11,037 nt of DNA, taken from contig JASWJB010000612.1 in assembly GCA_032433595.1 (NCBI GenBank), forward strand, positions 1-11,037. Reading direction: 5' to 3'. The notes under the pieces were generated by a model. It searched no databases and was not told where the DNA came from. It worked only from the letters and a program-made list of their open reading frames with translations. Below are positions 329-9,805 of this stretch, piece after piece; within the stretch, counting starts at the first letter, position 1; every line of letters starts with the position of its first letter. The translations under genes and the position numbers were made by a program. This DNA is from Conoideocrella luteorostrata. Taxonomy: Eukaryota > Ascomycota > Sordariomycetes > Hypocreales > Clavicipitaceae.

Positions 329-418
329 TTTGACACAAATTACTTTGATATACTGTCATTTTGACACACGAATCTTTTTGAATCATTTTGATACACAAAT
401 TAGTTTGACACACGAAAA
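329..418. repeat. Short degenerate TTGACACA-type direct repeats before the 419 gene
   Basis: The core TTGACACACGAA occurs at 361-372 and again at 405-416. Related copies are TTGACACAAAT at 330-340 and TTGATACACAAAT at 388-400. Spacing is irregular (about 17-31 bases). The last copy runs directly into the ATG at 419, so the repeats form the immediate 5' leader or core promoter of that gene. They could be a decayed minisatellite or repeated factor-binding sites; the sequence does not decide which. Confidence 0.5.
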
Positions 419-1219
419 ATGGCCGGCCAAGAGCGAAAGCACGAGAACTCCGCTCAGAATATCATAGCTAACGAACGGCGGGCCAACTATGACGAATTCT
501 TTTTTGAGATTGCTGATTGGATTAAACCAGCAGTAGAACACGTCTGCAACCTCGAAGATGATTTAAGAGCAACCGAAGAGGTTAGATTATTCAAGTTCTT
601 CAAGGCAAAGGGAATGACGCGAAATAGTGCCACAAAAATGGCAATTGAATACAACAATTGGAAAGCAATTCATGGGCAGCAGACCACAGATATTCTACAG
701 AACTTGATGCCTGAGATCAACAAAGTTGAACTTTGGAAGAGAGGGGGAAAGAAAAAGGATGATGCGCCGTCTACCCCATTCCTAGACCGCATCAAGGTTC
801 TTTGCGATAAATCTTGCCTTATCAGCAGGAGGACATTCATATATTGGATTGACGTACAAAATGAGAGACATCAAATGGCGCACGACTTCGTGCCCGTGCC
901 AAGAAACTTCTTCTGCCAAAATACTGGTCGGGTCGACTTTTCAGCCTTGAAAAAAGCAATTTTCCGCGAGAAACTCGAGGTTCGGCAAAGACACGACTCT
1001 GGGACCCTCATTAATGCGCAGTTTGACATGTTCAACAATGCAATTCAATCTATTTTGAACTTATATTTTGTTGACGTCCGCGACAATGCAAATGCGCGGC
1101 CGACTTCAGCGGGATTGGTCGAAGAAACGCGCCTTGAGAGCATCGCCGGCAATAATCCGCCTCCCCCAGTAGACTACCCGGACCTCTTGAATTGCGACTG
1201 GGATGACCTTGATCTCTAA
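419..1219 (+). CDS. Hypothetical protein, 266 aa, family not recognised
   Basis: An uninterrupted 266-codon frame starts at an ATG in a good eukaryotic context (aaaaATGG) and ends at TAA. I do not recognise the family. There is no signal peptide and no membrane segment, so it is probably cytosolic or nuclear. The sequence is hydrophilic and looks mostly helical up to about residue 225. It has a basic patch near residues 107-113 (KRGGKKK), a proline run near 247-250 and a very acidic C-terminal tail (CDWDDLDL). A basic patch plus an acidic tail would suit a nuclear or DNA-associated protein, but that is only suggestive. It is intronless, unlike most other genes here, and separated from the ureohydrolase by almost 1 kb of AT-rich DNA, so membership in the cluster is doubtful. 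It could be a lineage-specific orphan or a remnant of a mobile element. Confidence 0.6.
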   Translation: MAGQERKHENSAQNIIANERRANYDEFFFEIADWIKPAVEHVCNLEDDLRATEEVRLFKFFKAKGMTRNSATKMAIEYNNWKAIHGQQTTDILQNLMPEINKVELWKRGGKKKDDAPSTPFLDRIKVLCDKSCLISRRTFIYWIDVQNERHQMAHDFVPVPRNFFCQNTGRVDFSALKKAIFREKLEVRQRHDSGTLINAQFDMFNNAIQSILNLYFVDVRDNANARPTSAGLVEETRLESIAGNNPPPPVDYPDLLNCDWDDLDL

Positions 1220-2192: not shown

Positions 2193-3938
2193 TTATTTCA
2201 CTTCAAGCTTGGTAGATGCGTTTCCAACTGGAGAAGTAACCATAAGATCAAGCAGGGAAAGGGCCACGTGCGCAGCGGCGAGGGTAGTGATCTGATTGTT
2301 TGTATCATATACTGGTGCAACTTCCACCACGTCGCCTCCAACAACCTTGAGTCCTTCCAAACCCTGCAGGATGGAAAGCAGCTCTCGTGTGGACCAGCCG
2401 CCTGGCTCTGGGGTGCCAGTTGCTATGTCGGATATTAGCGAGACTGAGAACTAGACATTCAAAAAAGCATCGGGAGTGGAGGATTGATCGAGTACCTGGG
2501 GCAAAAGCAGGATCCAAGACGTCAATATCAACGGTGACGTACACAGGGCTGTCGCCCACGCGTTGGCGAATCTTGTCAATCACACCGCGGATGCCCAATG
2601 TATCTACTTCGCGGGCGTTGACAGTCGCGAACCCGCACCGCCGGTCGTCGTCTAGGTCACGGCGGTAATAGTGCGGCGCGCGGATACCAGCATGAATGGA
2701 GTTGTTGAGAATCAGCCCCTGATTCCAAGTCTCAGAAAAGATGGCCACAATAAAATTCCCCCACGACGAGGATAACATACCTCTTCATGAGCAATGTACA
2801 GAAATGTGCCATGGTCTAATTTTCTATAGTCAAGTTAGTCGGCATAGCTGGTGCTTAAGAGTCCGGCTGTCAAGCCTGCCGCTTCATTCATTTTTTTCTT
2901 TAAGAAGCATGGAAGAGGTAATAGCATTCTATTTTGAAAGAGGTCTTGCTTACGCATATTCAGACAAGGCATCATCATATGTCCAGGTGTCTAACAATCA
3001 GGGAAAAGGAGAGTTTTAGTCATCCGTGGCCCACCTAGTTGAGAGTGGCGCTTTGCATTTCCCGTAAGAGTGGCACTCACCAATGTGACTATCAAAATGG
3101 ACGACAGCCACCTCACCCCATCGCTTCCGCACAGCCCGCAGGGCCGAGAGCGTCGTGCTATGATCGCCACCAAGCATCAGGACACGAGGGGAGCGGCAGC
3201 GCTCCGGGTGCGCCGCTTTTCGAAGAGTAGCAAGGTCGTGGGCTCTGTCAAGCGTTCCCATGGCGACTTGTTTGTCCAAATTGTACATGGGGACATCTCC
3301 GCAGTCTACTATTTTGGCCCACTCGCGAAGAGGGTCACGGTCTCTCGTGGCGGAGAAGTCAGCTGGAGAAGCCACCCGGACACGGTCAAGAGATTCAGAC
3401 AAACCGGTAAAAGGACTATAACCAAAAGACATGATCTGAGTTGCGAGTCTAATGTTGACTGGGCCAAAGCGTGCTCCTGGCCGAACTGTGACAGCCTAAA
3501 CTCACACATCTCGACAATAGAGGGCAGGTTAGCCAAGTGTAGCTTGCATGCCCCAAGCTTGGCATGAGCCATTAGAATAATGGGTGACAAATAGGCTCTG
3601 GAATGGGCTCAATTCACGGGAGCAGCGAGAGGGACAGGGATTTAGGCTAGACTGACAGTGTCGCTGGGGGCACCCAAGAAGGCAATATCGTATGTACTGT
3701 CATTGTCGCCCTTTGCAAAGCAGTTCATGCCTGGCACACTCATGAATGTGTTGGACGCTTGAGAAGAACTCGCTAGGATGTCGTCATTGCTTTGCGAGAC
3801 AAGCCTCCGATGAATTGCTGAGTCTTTGCCAGACACACGCTTCTGACTTTGGACATGGCCATGCCCATCAACAAGCCCATTTGCGGCCGCGAGGAAGCAT
3901 AGTCCAGATAGGGTCTGTAAAGTCGGCCAAATCTTCAT
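2193..3938 (-). CDS. Secreted agmatinase/arginase-family ureohydrolase, six exons, 409 aa
   Basis: Exons: 3938-3657, 3495-3081, 2990-2954, 2823-2781, 2718-2496, 2422-2193, with all junctions in phase. The first ~24 residues form a signal peptide (MKIWPTLQTLSGLCFLAAANG), so the enzyme should enter the secretory pathway. Ureohydrolase motifs follow in order: GAPSDT (about 89-94), RPGARFGP (99-106), GGDHS (203-207), FDSHIDTW (228-235), IHAGIRAP (267-274), DIDVLDPAFAP (323-333) and GGDVVEVAP (362-370). The six expected Mn ligands are all present (His206, Asp229, His231, Asp233, Asp323, Asp325), so it should be catalytically competent. The family hydrolyses guanidino groups to an amine plus urea. 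Fungal members of this secreted type are usually named agmatinase, but the substrate cannot be read from sequence. It is the nearest gene downstream of the repeat precursor and on the same strand. It may be a tailoring enzyme or merely a neighbour. Confidence 0.88.
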
Positions 3939-5552
3939 TTTTGCGAGTACGTCTGCTCAAGATGGGTTCAAGTGACAAGTGAGCAGAATGCATGCATACA
4001 CGCACTTCCTGTGGCCGGCTGCTGTTAAATGGAGCGCACTTGATGTTATAGTGAGGGTGGGGTGCTTCGACTCAAGTTGCTTTCCGAGATCCTGTTGCGT
4101 GGGGGTGAAATAGTGACAAAATACTCCGCTGTGCAGTGGAATCGCCGGCGTGCGGTGCAGACGGCGGCCGTTCTCATCCGCCTCGGGCGTCACCCGAGCG
4201 CTCCTGCATACGACTCTACTGCTTATGGCTCTAATGCATACGACTCTACTACTGTGTCCCGGAATACTGTGTCCCGGAAAGGCGAGGTCGGCGAGAACTT
4301 TTGCCGCCAAGTTCACGGATACAAGCATACCGCCTTTCAGAACTGCTATTCCAGAGTTCGACGCTGGCACGCAAAAACGAAGACAGTCCCACAGATTTAG
4401 ATAAGATTCACATCCCGAATCAAGTTGTAAGTGGAGGCCGGGGATGTGGAGTGGCGACGAGGTAATGAGGGGTTTTGCGCTTTGCTGCGTTGCCTGCCAT
4501 AATCAAGGCTTAGGTACAGGCGATGGCCTTCGCACTATGGATTTGTCGTGCTGATCAGAAAAACCAAAAGAGACCGCCAAATAATCGATGGTTGAGACAA
4601 CATCGCGGATTTTCCACTCCACTTAGGAGAGATTTGCGGGACAGTAGCAATTGCAACCGAAAAGATTTTTTTTATAAAAAGTAAACATAGAAAAGCAAAA
4701 TAATCAAACTTATGTTTGTTTCACATTTTCAAATTCTAGTACGAGCTCTGTGGAAGATGCTGTCGTTGTTAGAGCTTGAGAGCAAATGGCTCGGATGTGT
4801 GGCCAGTTGGTACGACAAATAGACTTGATCATCGGATCCTCTAAATATTGGACGAGATGTTCTGGATTGACGGTATTTGCTTGCATATAGCAAGATTTCT
4901 TTTCCGGATTTCAGCCCAGAGCTAATTGGGCTCTTCGAAAGGGAAAGAATGAAAGCCCCAAATTGTCATGTCAACTCGCTTGCTGGTATGTGGCTAAATG
5001 TTCCAACCATCGTGGCATCAATTGAAGCGCTAGAATAATACCTGTCACATCTCTTTTGTTAAGAATTGGAGACGGAAATTGGCACAGCCGGGGCAAGTGA
5101 GGCAGTCTGTTGAGGATTCGGGAGGATTCATTCCAGGTATACGGAACGTTCTGTTCGTATTTGATGCTTTACTTGTGCACAATGGATAAGGCTCAATGAA
5201 GTTATAGGAGATGTCATGTGTAAAGGATGGGCAGTTACATGGACATACGAGCTGTTGGGCGCCGGTCTTCTTCATTCACTTTGTTAAATGGAATGAAAGT
5301 TCTTGAAAAATATTTCCTTGTGTATTGTCACTGTCGATTTATTGTCGTGCCTAAGCACTGTTCTGCAAAGGTGCTTTGAGTGATCAGCTAACGCTTCTGT
5401 TGTAGAGCGTTTCCACCAGCTCGGCTTCTTGCCCTCCCGTATCCTCAAACGATTCTACTAAGGACAGATAGCAGACTGCTCCGGCAACAGTCCTAATGTC
5501 AGCATGATTTCCGATTCTGTTGAAGAATCAGCGCTGAACAATGGTGGATTGC
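3939..5552. other. Intergenic region between ureohydrolase and repeat precursor
   Basis: About 1.6 kb without a gene I can support. The part next to 3938 is the ureohydrolase promoter; a TATAAC sequence on the minus strand (4050-4045) lies about 110 bases before its ATG. It also contains the 15-bp repeat array at 4206-4280. A 76-codon ATG-initiated frame on the minus strand (5275-5045) has seven Cys, including CPCNC and CLTCPGC clusters, but no signal peptide, recognisable family or clear splice partners; I do not call it a gene. The DNA next to 5553 is the 3' flank of the precursor gene. Confidence 0.5.
4206..4280. repeat. Array of five 15-bp units, two sequence types
   Basis: Consecutive 15-bp units run from 4206: GCATACGACTCTACT (4206-4220), a diverged copy (4221-4235), an exact copy of the first (4236-4250), then ACTGTGTCCCGGAAT (4251-4265) and ACTGTGTCCCGGAAA (4266-4280). 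The period is a multiple of three and every frame stays open across the array, but no start codon or family motif links it to a gene. It lies about 270 bp upstream of the ureohydrolase ATG, so it could affect that promoter or be a relic of coding sequence. Confidence 0.7.
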
Positions 5553-6118
5553 TTAAAGGTACGATTGGTGGCGGTCAGGCTCGGCCTGGGAACGCTCCTT
5601 GAGATAGGACTGGTGGCGATCGGGCTCAACAAGGCCACATTCCTTCAAGTAAGATTGGTGACGGTCGGGTTCAACACGGCCTCGTTCCTTGAGATAAGAT
5701 TGATGACGGTCCGGTTCAACAAGAGAGCGTTCCTTCAAGTAAGATTGATGACGATCCGGCTCCACAAGAGAGCGCTCCTTGAGATAGGACTGGTGGCGAT
5801 CGGGCTCAGCATTGCCTCGTTCCTTCAAGTAAGATTGATGACGATCCGGCTCAACAGAGCCTCGTTCCTTGAGATAAGACTGGTGACGGTCGGGTTCGAC
5901 AAGACCACGTTCCTTCAAGTATGACTGGTGACGGTCAGGTTCGACAAGACCACGTTCCTTCAAGTATGACTGGTGACGGTCCGGCTCAGCAAGACCATCA
6001 GTAGTAGCAGCTGTGACACATTAGTCGGGTTACCAGCGTGCCCATGACAAGACTAACTTTTTGTTGGGGCGGCCAATGCCAACGCCGGGAATAGAATGAA
6101 GACGCTTGAGAAACGCAT
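5553..6118 (-). CDS. Repeat-containing RiPP precursor (ustiloxin/dikaritin-like), signal peptide plus ten 15-residue units
   Basis: Exon 1 is 6118-6058 and exon 2 is 6010-5553, giving 172 aa. The start is the ATG at 6118. Its first 16-17 residues (MRFSSVFILFPALALAA) form a clear signal peptide. The 47-nt intron (GTTAGT...CTAAT...CACAG, 6057-6011) removes an in-frame stop and joins this exon in frame to the repeats. After a short spacer come ten copies of [G/S]-x-[V/A]-EPDRHQSYL, nine of them followed by KER or KEC; the last copy ends exactly at HQSYL-stop. A signal peptide plus tandem copies of a Tyr-containing core is the architecture of UstA-type precursors, whose cores are cut out in the Golgi and cross-linked by UstYa oxidases; two such oxidases lie just upstream. 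Unlike UstA there is no Lys-Arg Kex2 site. Alternatives are a pheromone precursor or another kexin-processed secreted repeat protein, but the units lack the usual alpha-pheromone residues. Confidence 0.9.
5556..5996 (-). repeat. 45-bp coding tandem repeat, ten units with 90-bp higher-order pattern
   Basis: Ten units of 45 bp (the last truncated by the stop codon) encode the repeated peptide of the precursor. Units 2-9 alternate in the codons for Tyr-Leu: TAC TTG in units 2, 4, 6 and 8 and TAT CTC in units 3, 5, 7 and 9, so the array behaves as duplications of a 90-bp dimer. Within EPDRHQSYLKER nearly all differences between units are synonymous (CAC/CAT, CAG/CAA, TCA/TCT/TCC/TCG, TTG/CTC/CTT and so on). 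The only amino-acid change there is one Arg to Cys. Confidence 0.95.
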
Positions 6119-6329: not shown

Positions 6330-7169
6330 CAATTCATTCCCGATCAACTTTACGTTTAATTTTCATTACTCATGAGTTTTGGCTATCAGAGGGTGTCATC
6401 ACTGCAAGGGTAGCAGAATGAGAACGTGTGGTCCCTTTTTCCACACCTAGTATTCCTGGATTGGTTCAGGCATCAACCTACCTCGCCTGATACAACTTTG
6501 AGATCACTAATCTACGTCACACGATGTGGCTCAGGTGCATGTAGGCTGCATGATTAGTTTCTTTCGAGATTGGAATTTCAGATGAACGGCGAGCGAAAAA
6601 GGGGGGTATGAATGACGTGGCAGTGATTAATGGCACTCGAAGACTTGCAAGTCTCGGATAATATTGGTAAGGTGACATTCAACAAGTAGACGTCGTATCC
6701 AAGTGGAAGCGTCAGCATGCGGGTGACAGATTCTTGCCGACCTTTCCGATTTGCAAATTATGCATGGTATCACGTAATTACGAATACAAAATTCCGTATC
6801 TGAACTAAATTGCGTGATTTGATCATTGGAATTGCTTATTGCTGAATCCACAAGGTTTGAGACGTGCCGCAATTAATCGATATGCTTTACGAATGGGTTT
6901 TAAGAGTAAGAGAGATTTACATCGCAAAATTTCGGGCTTTAGCGCAGAAGGTGATTATTTTTAGCACGAAAATTATAGGTTGTAGGTGGTTATTTCAATT
7001 ATACGAAGCTAGTGTTTTGAGGAGTTCAATGGCTTTGCTATCGCTATGCTTTAAACCGTGTTTATTACCAAAACTAGAGACTATCAAACATCATTTCCAC
7101 TGCTACTATAATCAAAAGGACCAGCTGCAAACTATTAGTCGAAATCTAGGTAGTTCAACGTCAATGTGA

Positions 7170-8174
7170 TTACTTACGAAGTTCAGGGTGGAAGTTTGGA
7201 TGTTTGATGAGAGATTCGTCAAACCCGTCAAAGAAATGAGCCCAAGCCCACTCCTCAATGGCCTCCCAGTTGGCACACTCGTGCACGATACGGAAGTTGG
7301 GCCATGGTTTATGAAAGTTGGGAATCCAGTCAAATGTCAACAACGAAACGTCAGTGTTGCACATGAGATATTGTCGTAAACTGTCAAGGCAGTGATCTAT
7401 AGCCGCGGGCTTGTCAGTTAAGCCGTACAAATCCATTTTATAATTTCAAAGTCGTTGAAAAAACAATCAAGCTCACCAATGTGCTGACCAAGATTTTTTT
7501 CTTGTGTCATGTTATAGTAATCTTGGTGCAAGTATCTCCGTACGTATCTCTTGAATGACTATCAGCTCGCAATTCCGACATGTAGAAACTATGAATGCAA
7601 CTAACAAGACAATGAAGCTGATGATAGACATCCAAACCTGCCATGTAACCGGATCCGTCTCGTAGCGGAACAGATGTTCGATTGATCCGTTCCAGAGTAT
7701 CTTTGCTGACCCGAACAGATGAAGGTCCAAGAAGCTTGTCCCAAGCCTCATCAAGCTCCGGTCTTGGAGGCCCTTTGAAAGGGTTAGTTGCTTCAAGTGC
7801 GTTTTCTACCACGCGCGGCTCCCATCTCAATGCCTCCAAAGCTGGACCTAAGTTGCAATATTCGTCAGACTTTCAACACTGATGAAGTATTTGTAGGACA
7901 CTTATGTCGACTAACTATAGGCATTGACCTCAGTGTTGCGAATATTAGCAACAGTGCAGCCTCTGTAGTCCCAAAAGGCGAAAAATAAGGTCGTATAAGT
8001 TGCTGCGAGGATCAGGTGGAATATTAGGGACAGTGGACTGAACAAGCACCAGCGTTTCTTTTTTTGTCGAAACTGAGAAGGAGAAAGCTTTTCATTTGAA
8101 GATGTTTCGGCCGAGCTCCTGAACTGCGTTAAGAGAGTTTCAGAGTCAGAAGTAATGTCAAACGATTGAGGCAT
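7170..8174 (-). CDS. UstYa-type (DUF3328) oxidase 1, four exons, 266 aa
   Basis: Exons: 8174-7916, 7847-7606, 7549-7477, 7396-7170; introns of 68, 56 and 80 nt keep the frame. The protein has a short cytosolic N-terminus, one membrane segment (about residues 42-67, WCLFSPLSLIFHLILAATY...) and a lumenal UstYa domain. That domain carries YSPALEALRWEP (86-97), DEAWDKLL, the first metal motif HQLHC (162-166) and the second HIDHC (190-194), split by intron 3, followed by LRQYLMCNTDVSL. The two HxxHC motifs are the signature of enzymes that cyclise, hydroxylate or chlorinate peptides in ustiloxin-, phomopsin- and cyclochlorotine-type pathways. It is transcribed toward the precursor and shares a divergent promoter with oxidase 2. 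A strong donor GTAAGT (7177) and acceptor TTGCAG (7125) near the stop could add a 53-nt intron and move the stop to 7084 (277 aa). Confidence 0.9.
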
Positions 8175-8820: not shown

Positions 8821-9805
8821 ATGGGTTTCTGGAACTTGAGGCGTGTCTTTACGGACAGGCTGAGCCAGACGCCGCCGGGGTTCTCGCGGGTGAAATGCGA
8901 CGATTTTGATCAAGAATCTTCACCTTTGCCACCGAGGGAGTCGTCTCTCCTGGGCCTGAGTACTCTCAAACTATCACTTTTCGCCCTCCTATACGCGTCG
9001 CTTACTTCTGCTTTGACCTGCTTGGTAATATGGCGCTTCGGCTTTGATTCCAATGTCGTTTCAAGGGCAAAAGCCAACCGTCTTCTGCAGTCGCCAATAC
9101 CCGACTGTAGGCTGTTTCACATGATAGTAATAATGTGTACACCGGGGCTGACTATCAGCGCATAGTTCCAAAAGAAATCCGAACATTTGAAGAGAATTCG
9201 ACATTCACGGATCCGCCAACGGCTGAGAACAACGAGGCATGGAATAGCCTTCTTCCGGTAAGTGAGCATAATCGAAGACTGATTATCCTTCTGTCCCTGG
9301 TTAGACCTTAATCACTGAGATCAATTCAAGTCTGGCAGAGGCTTTGTTTTTGTCAAAGATGCGGCCAAGTATGGCCTTGAGCCTGGTATTGACACTGGTC
9401 GCGGTGAAATTTATTCGGTCTCTTTGTATCATCAGATTCATTGCCTGGGGTTGGTCCGCAAAAACTACTGGCGCGTAGTAAATGGGATCGTGAATGCTGA
9501 TGCAGAGATCACGGAATTTGCACGCAGTGAGCTGAGCGGCTCACACACCGCGCATTGTTTCGACTACTTCAGACAGAGCTTCGAATGCTCAGCTGATATG
9601 TCACTTGAATGGACCCAGCCAGGATCTAAGCAAGTAGACGGCGTGGGCATCCCCCACGTCTGCACAAGCAAGGTTTGTCTGCCCAGATTGTATTGCAAAT
9701 TCTGAAGGGTTCCACAAACTAACGTCGCCAATATAGCGGGCTGTCAAAGAATACATGGACAAGCATCAGTTTGATGGGGCTCATAACCACGATATCTCGG
9801 CTTGA
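8821..9805 (+). CDS. UstYa-type (DUF3328) oxidase 2, four exons, 262 aa
   Basis: Exons: 8821-9106, 9166-9257, 9331-9672, 9737-9805; introns of 59, 73 and 64 nt, the last with an ACTAAC branch site, all in phase. The protein is a single-pass membrane protein: cytosolic N-terminus, membrane segment at about 49-71 (LKLSLFALLYASLTSALTCL...), then the lumenal domain. That domain shows IPDFPKEIRTF (93-103), NEAWNSLLP (118-126), HQIHC (160-164), HTAHC (198-202), FRQSFECSADMSLEW and HVC near the end. Both HxxHC motifs are intact, so it should be active. Ustiloxin and several related pathways use pairs of UstYa enzymes for cyclisation; this divergently transcribed pair would fit that. Splice site 1 uses a weaker donor (GTAGGC), but the join restores the family block exactly. 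Confidence 0.9.

Follow-up and report, generated by a model that had tools for sequence, protein, structure and literature searches.

The question raised by this locus is whether an open frame of short tyrosine-containing repeats, lying near genes of the UstYa family, encodes the precursor of a dikaritin-type RiPP or a repeat protein of another kind. The DNA analysed (the window) comprises all 11,037 bp of contig C612 in the 46.4-Mb genome of Conoideocrella luteorostrata, a scale-insect pathogen of the Clavicipitaceae (PMC12352038). The assembly used here holds 46.42 Mb in 620 contigs, as against 47.39 Mb in 864 scaffolds in the genome paper, the accessible text of which names fungal RiPPs only inside an 'Other' category and contains no discussion of this locus (PMC12352038).

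The initial annotation had described a repeat frame with no ATG of its own, joined through a 47-nt intron with good splice and branch signals to an upstream mini-exon carrying a signal peptide. All of this was borne out. The open frame at 6020-5556 holds no methionine, and conceptual splicing of 6118-6058 to 6010-5553 on the minus strand yields an in-frame product of 172 aa. The parts of the gene are as follows.

6058..6118, minus strand: precursor exon 1, 20 aa, start codon and signal peptide MRFSSVFILFPALALA followed by APTK, predicted by inspection
6011..6057, minus strand: precursor intron, 47 nt, GTTAGT ... CTAATGTGTCACAG, from the sequence
5553..6010, minus strand: precursor exon 2, short spacer, repeats and TAA stop (5555-5553)
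5556..5987, minus strand: ten EPDRHQSYL cores, nine of them followed by K-E-R (eight) or K-E-C (one) and three variable residues

The intron has the donor GTTAGT, a branch-like CTAAT and the acceptor CAG, and the predicted signal peptide shows, by inspection, a hydrophobic core and an A-x-A site. The product runs from MRFSSVFILFPALALA (with an A-L-A/A-P site) through APTKTATTDGLA to the ten EPDRHQSYL cores, twelve residues of spacer separating the predicted signal peptide from the first core. Ten tyrosine-containing 15-mers had been claimed; ten cores are present, each with its Tyr, but the array is made up of nine full 15-mers plus one terminal 9-mer, the tenth EPDRHQSYL forming the C-terminus directly before the stop. 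The only cysteine of the precursor comes from the KEC linker. No KR, RR, KK or RK pair was found in the 172 residues, the linkers being eight KER and one KEC, and no second copy of the precursor was found in the C. luteorostrata genome.

As a control, the 310 nt before exon 2 (6320-6011, exon 1 and intron included) were subjected to 1000 dinucleotide shuffles, which were scored for an ATG, a hydrophobic exon, donor, branch, acceptor, in-frame join and A-x-A. The full set appeared in 0 of 1000 shuffles, the features having been chosen with knowledge of the real solution; the signal-exon solution before the repeat is more than chance would be expected to give. When the nine full units are aligned over their first 12 codons, 13 columns vary, and 11 of these are third codon positions (hypergeometric p = 1.4e-6). 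The ten cores spell one protein sequence in eight distinct DNA versions, with a divergence among cores of pS 0.94 (saturated) and pN 0.03, and the three spacer residues of each unit evolve at a near-neutral dN/dS of 0.91. These figures bear on the idea that the array is unexpressed or in decay and yields no product. The one linker that now reads KEC would fit such decay, but the cores are identical as protein while synonymous change is saturated, and the putative Epichloe festucae orthologue described below has a cDNA-confirmed structure and is among the top 100 genes upregulated in planta (PMC6374014); decay is therefore extremely unlikely.

Two genes with both UstYa HxxHC motifs had been placed within 4 kb of the repeat, and Pfam matches together with motif reading confirmed them. 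They and a third gene occupy the right half of the contig.

7084..8174, minus strand: UstYa-1, 277 aa, motifs HQLHC and HIDHC, PF11807; orthologous to the N-terminal portion of E. festucae C2857_004664
8821..9805, plus strand: UstYa-2 (QQS21_012737), 262 aa, motifs HQIHC and HTAHC, PF11807
10295..10921, minus strand: gene 3, predicted one-helix membrane protein in which both HxxHC motifs are lost (LQYRC, ELMKC)

UstYa-1 was modelled with five exons (8174-7916, 7847-7606, 7549-7477, 7396-7178 and 7124-7084) and UstYa-2 with four (8821-9106, 9166-9257, 9331-9672 and 9737-9805), the latter model being identical letter for letter to the public protein P0046 (QQS21_012737). Exon by exon, the PF11807 matches of both genes have E values of 1.7e-21 to 1.5e-16. 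Relatives were sought with a UstYa-1 query lacking its true last exon and a UstYa-2 query whose intron choice differed from that of P0046. All 18 UstYa-2 sequences keep the His and Cys residues of both motifs, and one motif is absent from four of the 17 UstYa-1 sequences (the first in P0004, P0032 and P0038, the second in P0009), possibly through gene-model errors. The UstYa-1 matches included no C. luteorostrata protein, so the public model of this gene may be off. A PDB sequence search with one UstYa-1 exon gave no match, and the AlphaFold models of UstYa-2 (mean pLDDT 61.5) and gene 3 (48.7) were too weak for use.

Gene 3 has no Pfam match. Seven matches to it were found elsewhere in the genome, six of them no more than about 2 kb from UstYa matches (C54:115562, C76:59022, C300:47070, C532:13030, C363:5272 and C341:142). 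Both HxxHC motifs are kept in all four of the relatives that were read (C54, C532, C363 and C76), and the 57 PF11807 exon matches of the genome include none of the seven. Gene 3 looks like a UstYa-like protein that has lost its catalytic-type motifs, a candidate pseudo-enzyme and a possible member of the cluster, and its resemblance to UstYa proteins adds weight to the reading of the contig's right half as a UstYa cluster. The Pfam scan of nine contig ORFs returned two arginase matches, three UstYa matches and four ORFs without a match, and the contig ends 1.2 kb past UstYa-2. Tyrosinase, methyltransferase and peptidase families had no match among these nine ORFs, which for tyrosinase and methyltransferase is a difference from the dikaritins as far as the contig reaches. 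In the original five-gene sense, a dikaritin cluster includes tyrosinase, methyltransferase, transporter or peptidase genes (PMC12048977, quoting Ding et al.). The left part of the contig carries an arginase-family gene (PF00491, about 2193-3956, minus strand) whose N-terminus resembles a secretion signal by eye, and a 271-aa open frame (404-1219, plus strand) that has no Pfam match and a 44% identical copy at C84:65912-66670.

Whether the repeat recurs beside UstYa genes in other ascomycetes had been proposed as a check, and the answer came from the grass fungus E. festucae. A database search with UstYa-1 found C2857_004664 (P0001) of strain Fl1, a 378-aa protein that consists of a UstYa-1 orthologue (252 of 277 residues identical) followed by seven EPD[RG][HL]QSY[LF] units. 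In the same species, C2857_004661 is the UstYa-2 orthologue (229 of 262 identical). The Epichloe linkers are KER in five of six cases and KKR in the sixth, and the array ends at EPDRHQSYL. The Arg of EPDR is replaced by Gly in two of the seven Epichloe units (units 1 and 3, EPDG), and none of the 17 units in the two species lacks the Tyr. The most likely cause of the fusion is an annotation error that passed over the signal exon. Among the full protein sequences of 16 relatives, P0001 is the only one to carry the repeat. A direct protein-database search with the precursor gave no match at E <= 1 for any of 11 candidates of at most 1.75 x 172 aa, a result that does not amount to absence, as the 378-aa Epichloe model exceeded this length bound and was found through UstYa-1.

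The repeat tail of C2857_004664 appears to be a protein that has already been described. With the 20-aa first exon of the window gene as a stand-in, the 107-aa tail becomes a protein of 127 aa and 14.97 kDa. SspN (EfM3.062700), reported from Fl1 by Hassing et al. in 2019, has 127 aa, 14.98 kDa, 15-aa repeats and no Cys, and a single LxKR motif that was seen only in strain Fl1 and that its authors suggest is a recent mutation (PMC6374014). The tail likewise has no Cys and one LxKR. With the same stand-in exon, the computed masses are 13.04 kDa without the 18-aa signal (13.19 reported for SspN) and 14.13 kDa with a His8 tag (14.31 reported). The sspN gene is 430 bp long with one intron (PMC6374014), computed here at 46 nt, against 47 nt in C. 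luteorostrata. Besides these small differences in mass, the repeat count is given differently, as 7.5 in the SspN paper against six full units plus nine residues in the tail. Since length, mass, repeat, cysteine, LxKR and intron figures agree, we infer that the tail is SspN, and the window precursor is its probable orthologue on sequence grounds. It shares with SspN the 15-aa unit and the single short intron, and differs in having ten units where SspN has seven and in that SspN was published as an effector candidate.

A good deal is known of SspN from that study (PMC6374014). The signal peptide is functional in yeast, and an SspN-mCherry fusion was located on hyphal walls. The gene is one of three effector candidates downregulated in all four E. 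festucae symbiotic mutant interactions; neither its deletion nor its overexpression produced a phenotype. Its distribution within Epichloe is patchy, and homologues outside the genus are listed, unnamed, in the supplement. The discussion cites GigA as a kexin-cut repeat protein that gives rise to cyclic peptides and does not appear to propose this for SspN, and word searches of the main text found no UstY, DUF3328 or RiPP. The initial annotation had called the cluster undescribed; this stands for the link to UstYa genes, which the main text of the SspN paper lacks, and falls for the repeat itself, which matches a published effector candidate.

If the precursor is cut into peptides, the linker is the likelier site, because two of the seven Epichloe units have Gly in place of the Arg of EPDR and all six Epichloe linkers are KER or KKR. 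Cutting after the DR of the core was considered and is disfavoured by the EPDG units; EPDR also has no Leu at P4. LKER is compatible with the expanded Kex2 motif LxxR at P4 (Leu), P2 (Glu) and P1 (Arg); the motif prefers Leu at P4, and Glu is one of the five top-ranked alternatives to Lys at P2 (PMC8528282). LKER would be a weak Kex2-type site. A proprotein-convertase P-domain (PF01483) is found at one place in the C. luteorostrata genome. Trimming of ...LKER by a Kex1-type enzyme would stop at Glu, and an extra peptidase would therefore be needed for this linker.

The layout of other precursors in the genome was examined for comparison. The 57 PF11807 exon matches lie on 27 contigs and form 32 groups at 5-kb spacing. 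Repeat frames were scanned in 189,708 bases around UstYa matches on 8 contigs and in 32 loci, each about 3 kb long, on 17 of the 27 contigs (the 8 and C612 included), precursors being picked by eye from the best 40 frames. At least four sibling precursors were found on these 17 of 27 contigs, 0.4 to 1.6 kb from UstYa matches.

C532 (L042:9325-9825), minus strand: nine NNQAGWG units with RR/KR linkers behind a signal-peptide-like start, a UstYa match 1.6 kb away
C54:25300-25662 (L037:400-762), minus strand: eight VEDYFIGAD units with KR linkers, a UstYa match 0.6 kb away
C8:231716-231928 (L040:9416-9628), plus strand: SADESYLPN units, KR linkers
C604 (L048:8014-8202), plus strand: DVADAF units, KR linkers

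The VEDYFIGAD unit resembles the EDYxI core type of PMC6339444, and the NNQAGWG unit has Trp and no Tyr. The array ends exactly at the core in two siblings and one or two residues beyond it in the other two, a layout that by analogy supports reading KER as the linker of the window precursor. All four siblings have KR or RR linkers; KER occurs in none of them, which makes it an unusual linker for the precursors detected in this genome.

P2 Glu is kept in 14 of the 15 linkers of the two species (nine of nine here, KEC counted, and five of six in Epichloe) though Lys is one base change away, which would suggest either selection for slow cutting, for instance to let cyclisation come first, or a protein that is kept whole. 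The latter would make SspN and its orthologue an intact secreted repeat protein of the hyphal surface, either unmodified, as an effector or wall protein, or cross-linked by UstYa enzymes and left uncut. The main evidence against processing is the published western, in which SspN-His8 (C-terminal tag, tef promoter) from axenic mycelium gave an uncleaved band of about 14 kDa and was absent from the medium, in an experiment in which SspM was processed (PMC6374014). SspN thus stayed uncleaved despite its LxKR, and this, the lack of a phenotype, the lack of dibasic sites in the window precursor and the lack of tailoring-enzyme matches among the nine scanned ORFs all weigh against a RiPP, just as the hyphal-wall mCherry signal weighs for an intact protein. 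Several points stand on the other side. The His tag sat on the last unit, so that a cut product would be tiny, about 20 aa, and the cultures were axenic, without the plant, so that partner enzymes may not have been made. Absence from the medium, which the authors ascribe to instability or wall attachment (PMC6374014), is predicted by cutting as well. In both species no residues follow the core of the last unit, which is also the case in two of the four KR-type siblings, and one Epichloe linker reads LKKR. Taken together, an intact surface protein of either sort seems unlikely. Its modified form, in which the UstYa pair would cross-link a repeat protein left whole, the linker Glu blocking Kex2 and cyclised Tyr loops being displayed on the hyphal surface, is given a smaller chance still and is regarded as quite unlikely; if true, it would be a kind of protein not met in the literature consulted.

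The neighbourhood itself has a wider distribution, assessed on the assumption that gene order follows locus-tag order. Relatives of UstYa-1 and UstYa-2 have close tags in five genomes: the tags are consecutive in Cordyceps sp. RAO-2017 (CDD83_2139/2138) and in Beauveria bassiana (CRV24_006143/006142), and the distance is two tags in Nemania abortiva, three in E. festucae and six in Ophiocordyceps camponoti-saundersi. Relatives of both apparently occur together also in Purpureocillium lavendulum and Penicillium cf. griseofulvum. Judged from the species names, the relatives of the pair presumably belong to the Hypocreales, Xylariales and Eurotiales. This distribution bears on another alternative, that of a linear, KEP-like signalling precursor cut by Kex2 without UstYa modification, its neighbours being coincidental. 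KEPs resemble the window precursor in being secreted and in having short near-identical repeats and basic-ended linkers, 6120 of 7878 KEPs have no UstYa neighbour (PMC7329392), and alpha-pheromone precursors share the general architecture (PMC6339444). However, the repeat adjoins UstYa-1 in two genera, the UstYa pair is close-tagged in five genomes, and Tyr is present in 17 of 17 units across two species, which makes this reading very unlikely. An alpha-pheromone as such is disfavoured by composition, the core having no Trp or Cys. The KEP definition of Le Marquer and Umemura demands KR, RR or KK between repeats, and in one survey also RK (PMC6339444, PMC7329392), and the window precursor falls outside it. 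Because dibasic sites are required, both surveys would miss KER-linked precursors.

The class of system to which the precursor is assigned is already known. Like the dikaritins or ust-RiPS (ustiloxin, phomopsin, asperipin-2a), it combines a signal peptide, Tyr repeats and adjacent UstYa/DUF3328 genes; one survey uses dibasic Kex2 sites to define the dikaritins (PMC7329392), whereas here the linker is KER and the core is different. GigA and the epichloecyclins, whose genes are expressed in host tissue, likewise have a signal peptide, repeats and a clustered gene for a UstYa-like cyclase (PMC8982410). The likeness, drawn from description, ends at the kexin recognition sequences between the GigA repeats, the window precursor having no dibasic site (PMC8982410). 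The letters EPDRHQSYL occurred in no paper of the open-access literature, and of four accessions and tags searched there only the genome accession occurs in print. No tie to UstYa or RiPPs was found in the open-access texts on sspN as an Epichloe effector, and the main text of a paper on uncharacterized Epichloe clusters does not give sspN or its gene number, though its supplements might list the locus (PMC8982410). As far as these searches go, the link between SspN and UstYa, the second-genus orthologue beside the same genes and the non-dibasic linker are new.

The initial proposal of a dikaritin-type precursor therefore stands in part: signal peptide, spacer, repeats, the UstYa pair and recurrence in E. 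festucae favour it, and the linkers are K-E-R rather than dibasic. It is the best reading because the arrangement recurs in E. festucae, and it is held with moderate confidence that the gene is the C. luteorostrata sspN orthologue and encodes a multi-core dikaritin-type RiPP precursor that is cross-linked and cut by Kex2. Both cleavage at LKER and cyclisation would belong to the following pathway. The precursor would enter the ER; membrane-anchored UstYa-1 and UstYa-2 would form an oxidative cross-link at the invariant Tyr in every [xxx]-EPD-x-x-QSY[L/F] core; Kex2 would cleave on the C-terminal side of L-K-E-R, which as a site is non-dibasic and of the LxxR type; the linker would be trimmed by an exopeptidase; and about ten modified 9- to 12-mers would be secreted per precursor.

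On the dikaritin-type reading, SspN is probably a RiPP precursor that has been kept beside UstYa genes in two genera. If this is true, it would give a chemical role to sspN, an effector candidate without a knockout phenotype. The sspN mutants were scored for growth, morphology and seed transmission (PMC6374014), whereas a RiPP would reveal itself through metabolites or through its action on other organisms. Surveys restricted to dibasic sites would miss a class of UstYa-linked precursors, and since relatives of the UstYa pair occur in the Hypocreales, Xylariales and Eurotiales, more such precursors may sit beside it.
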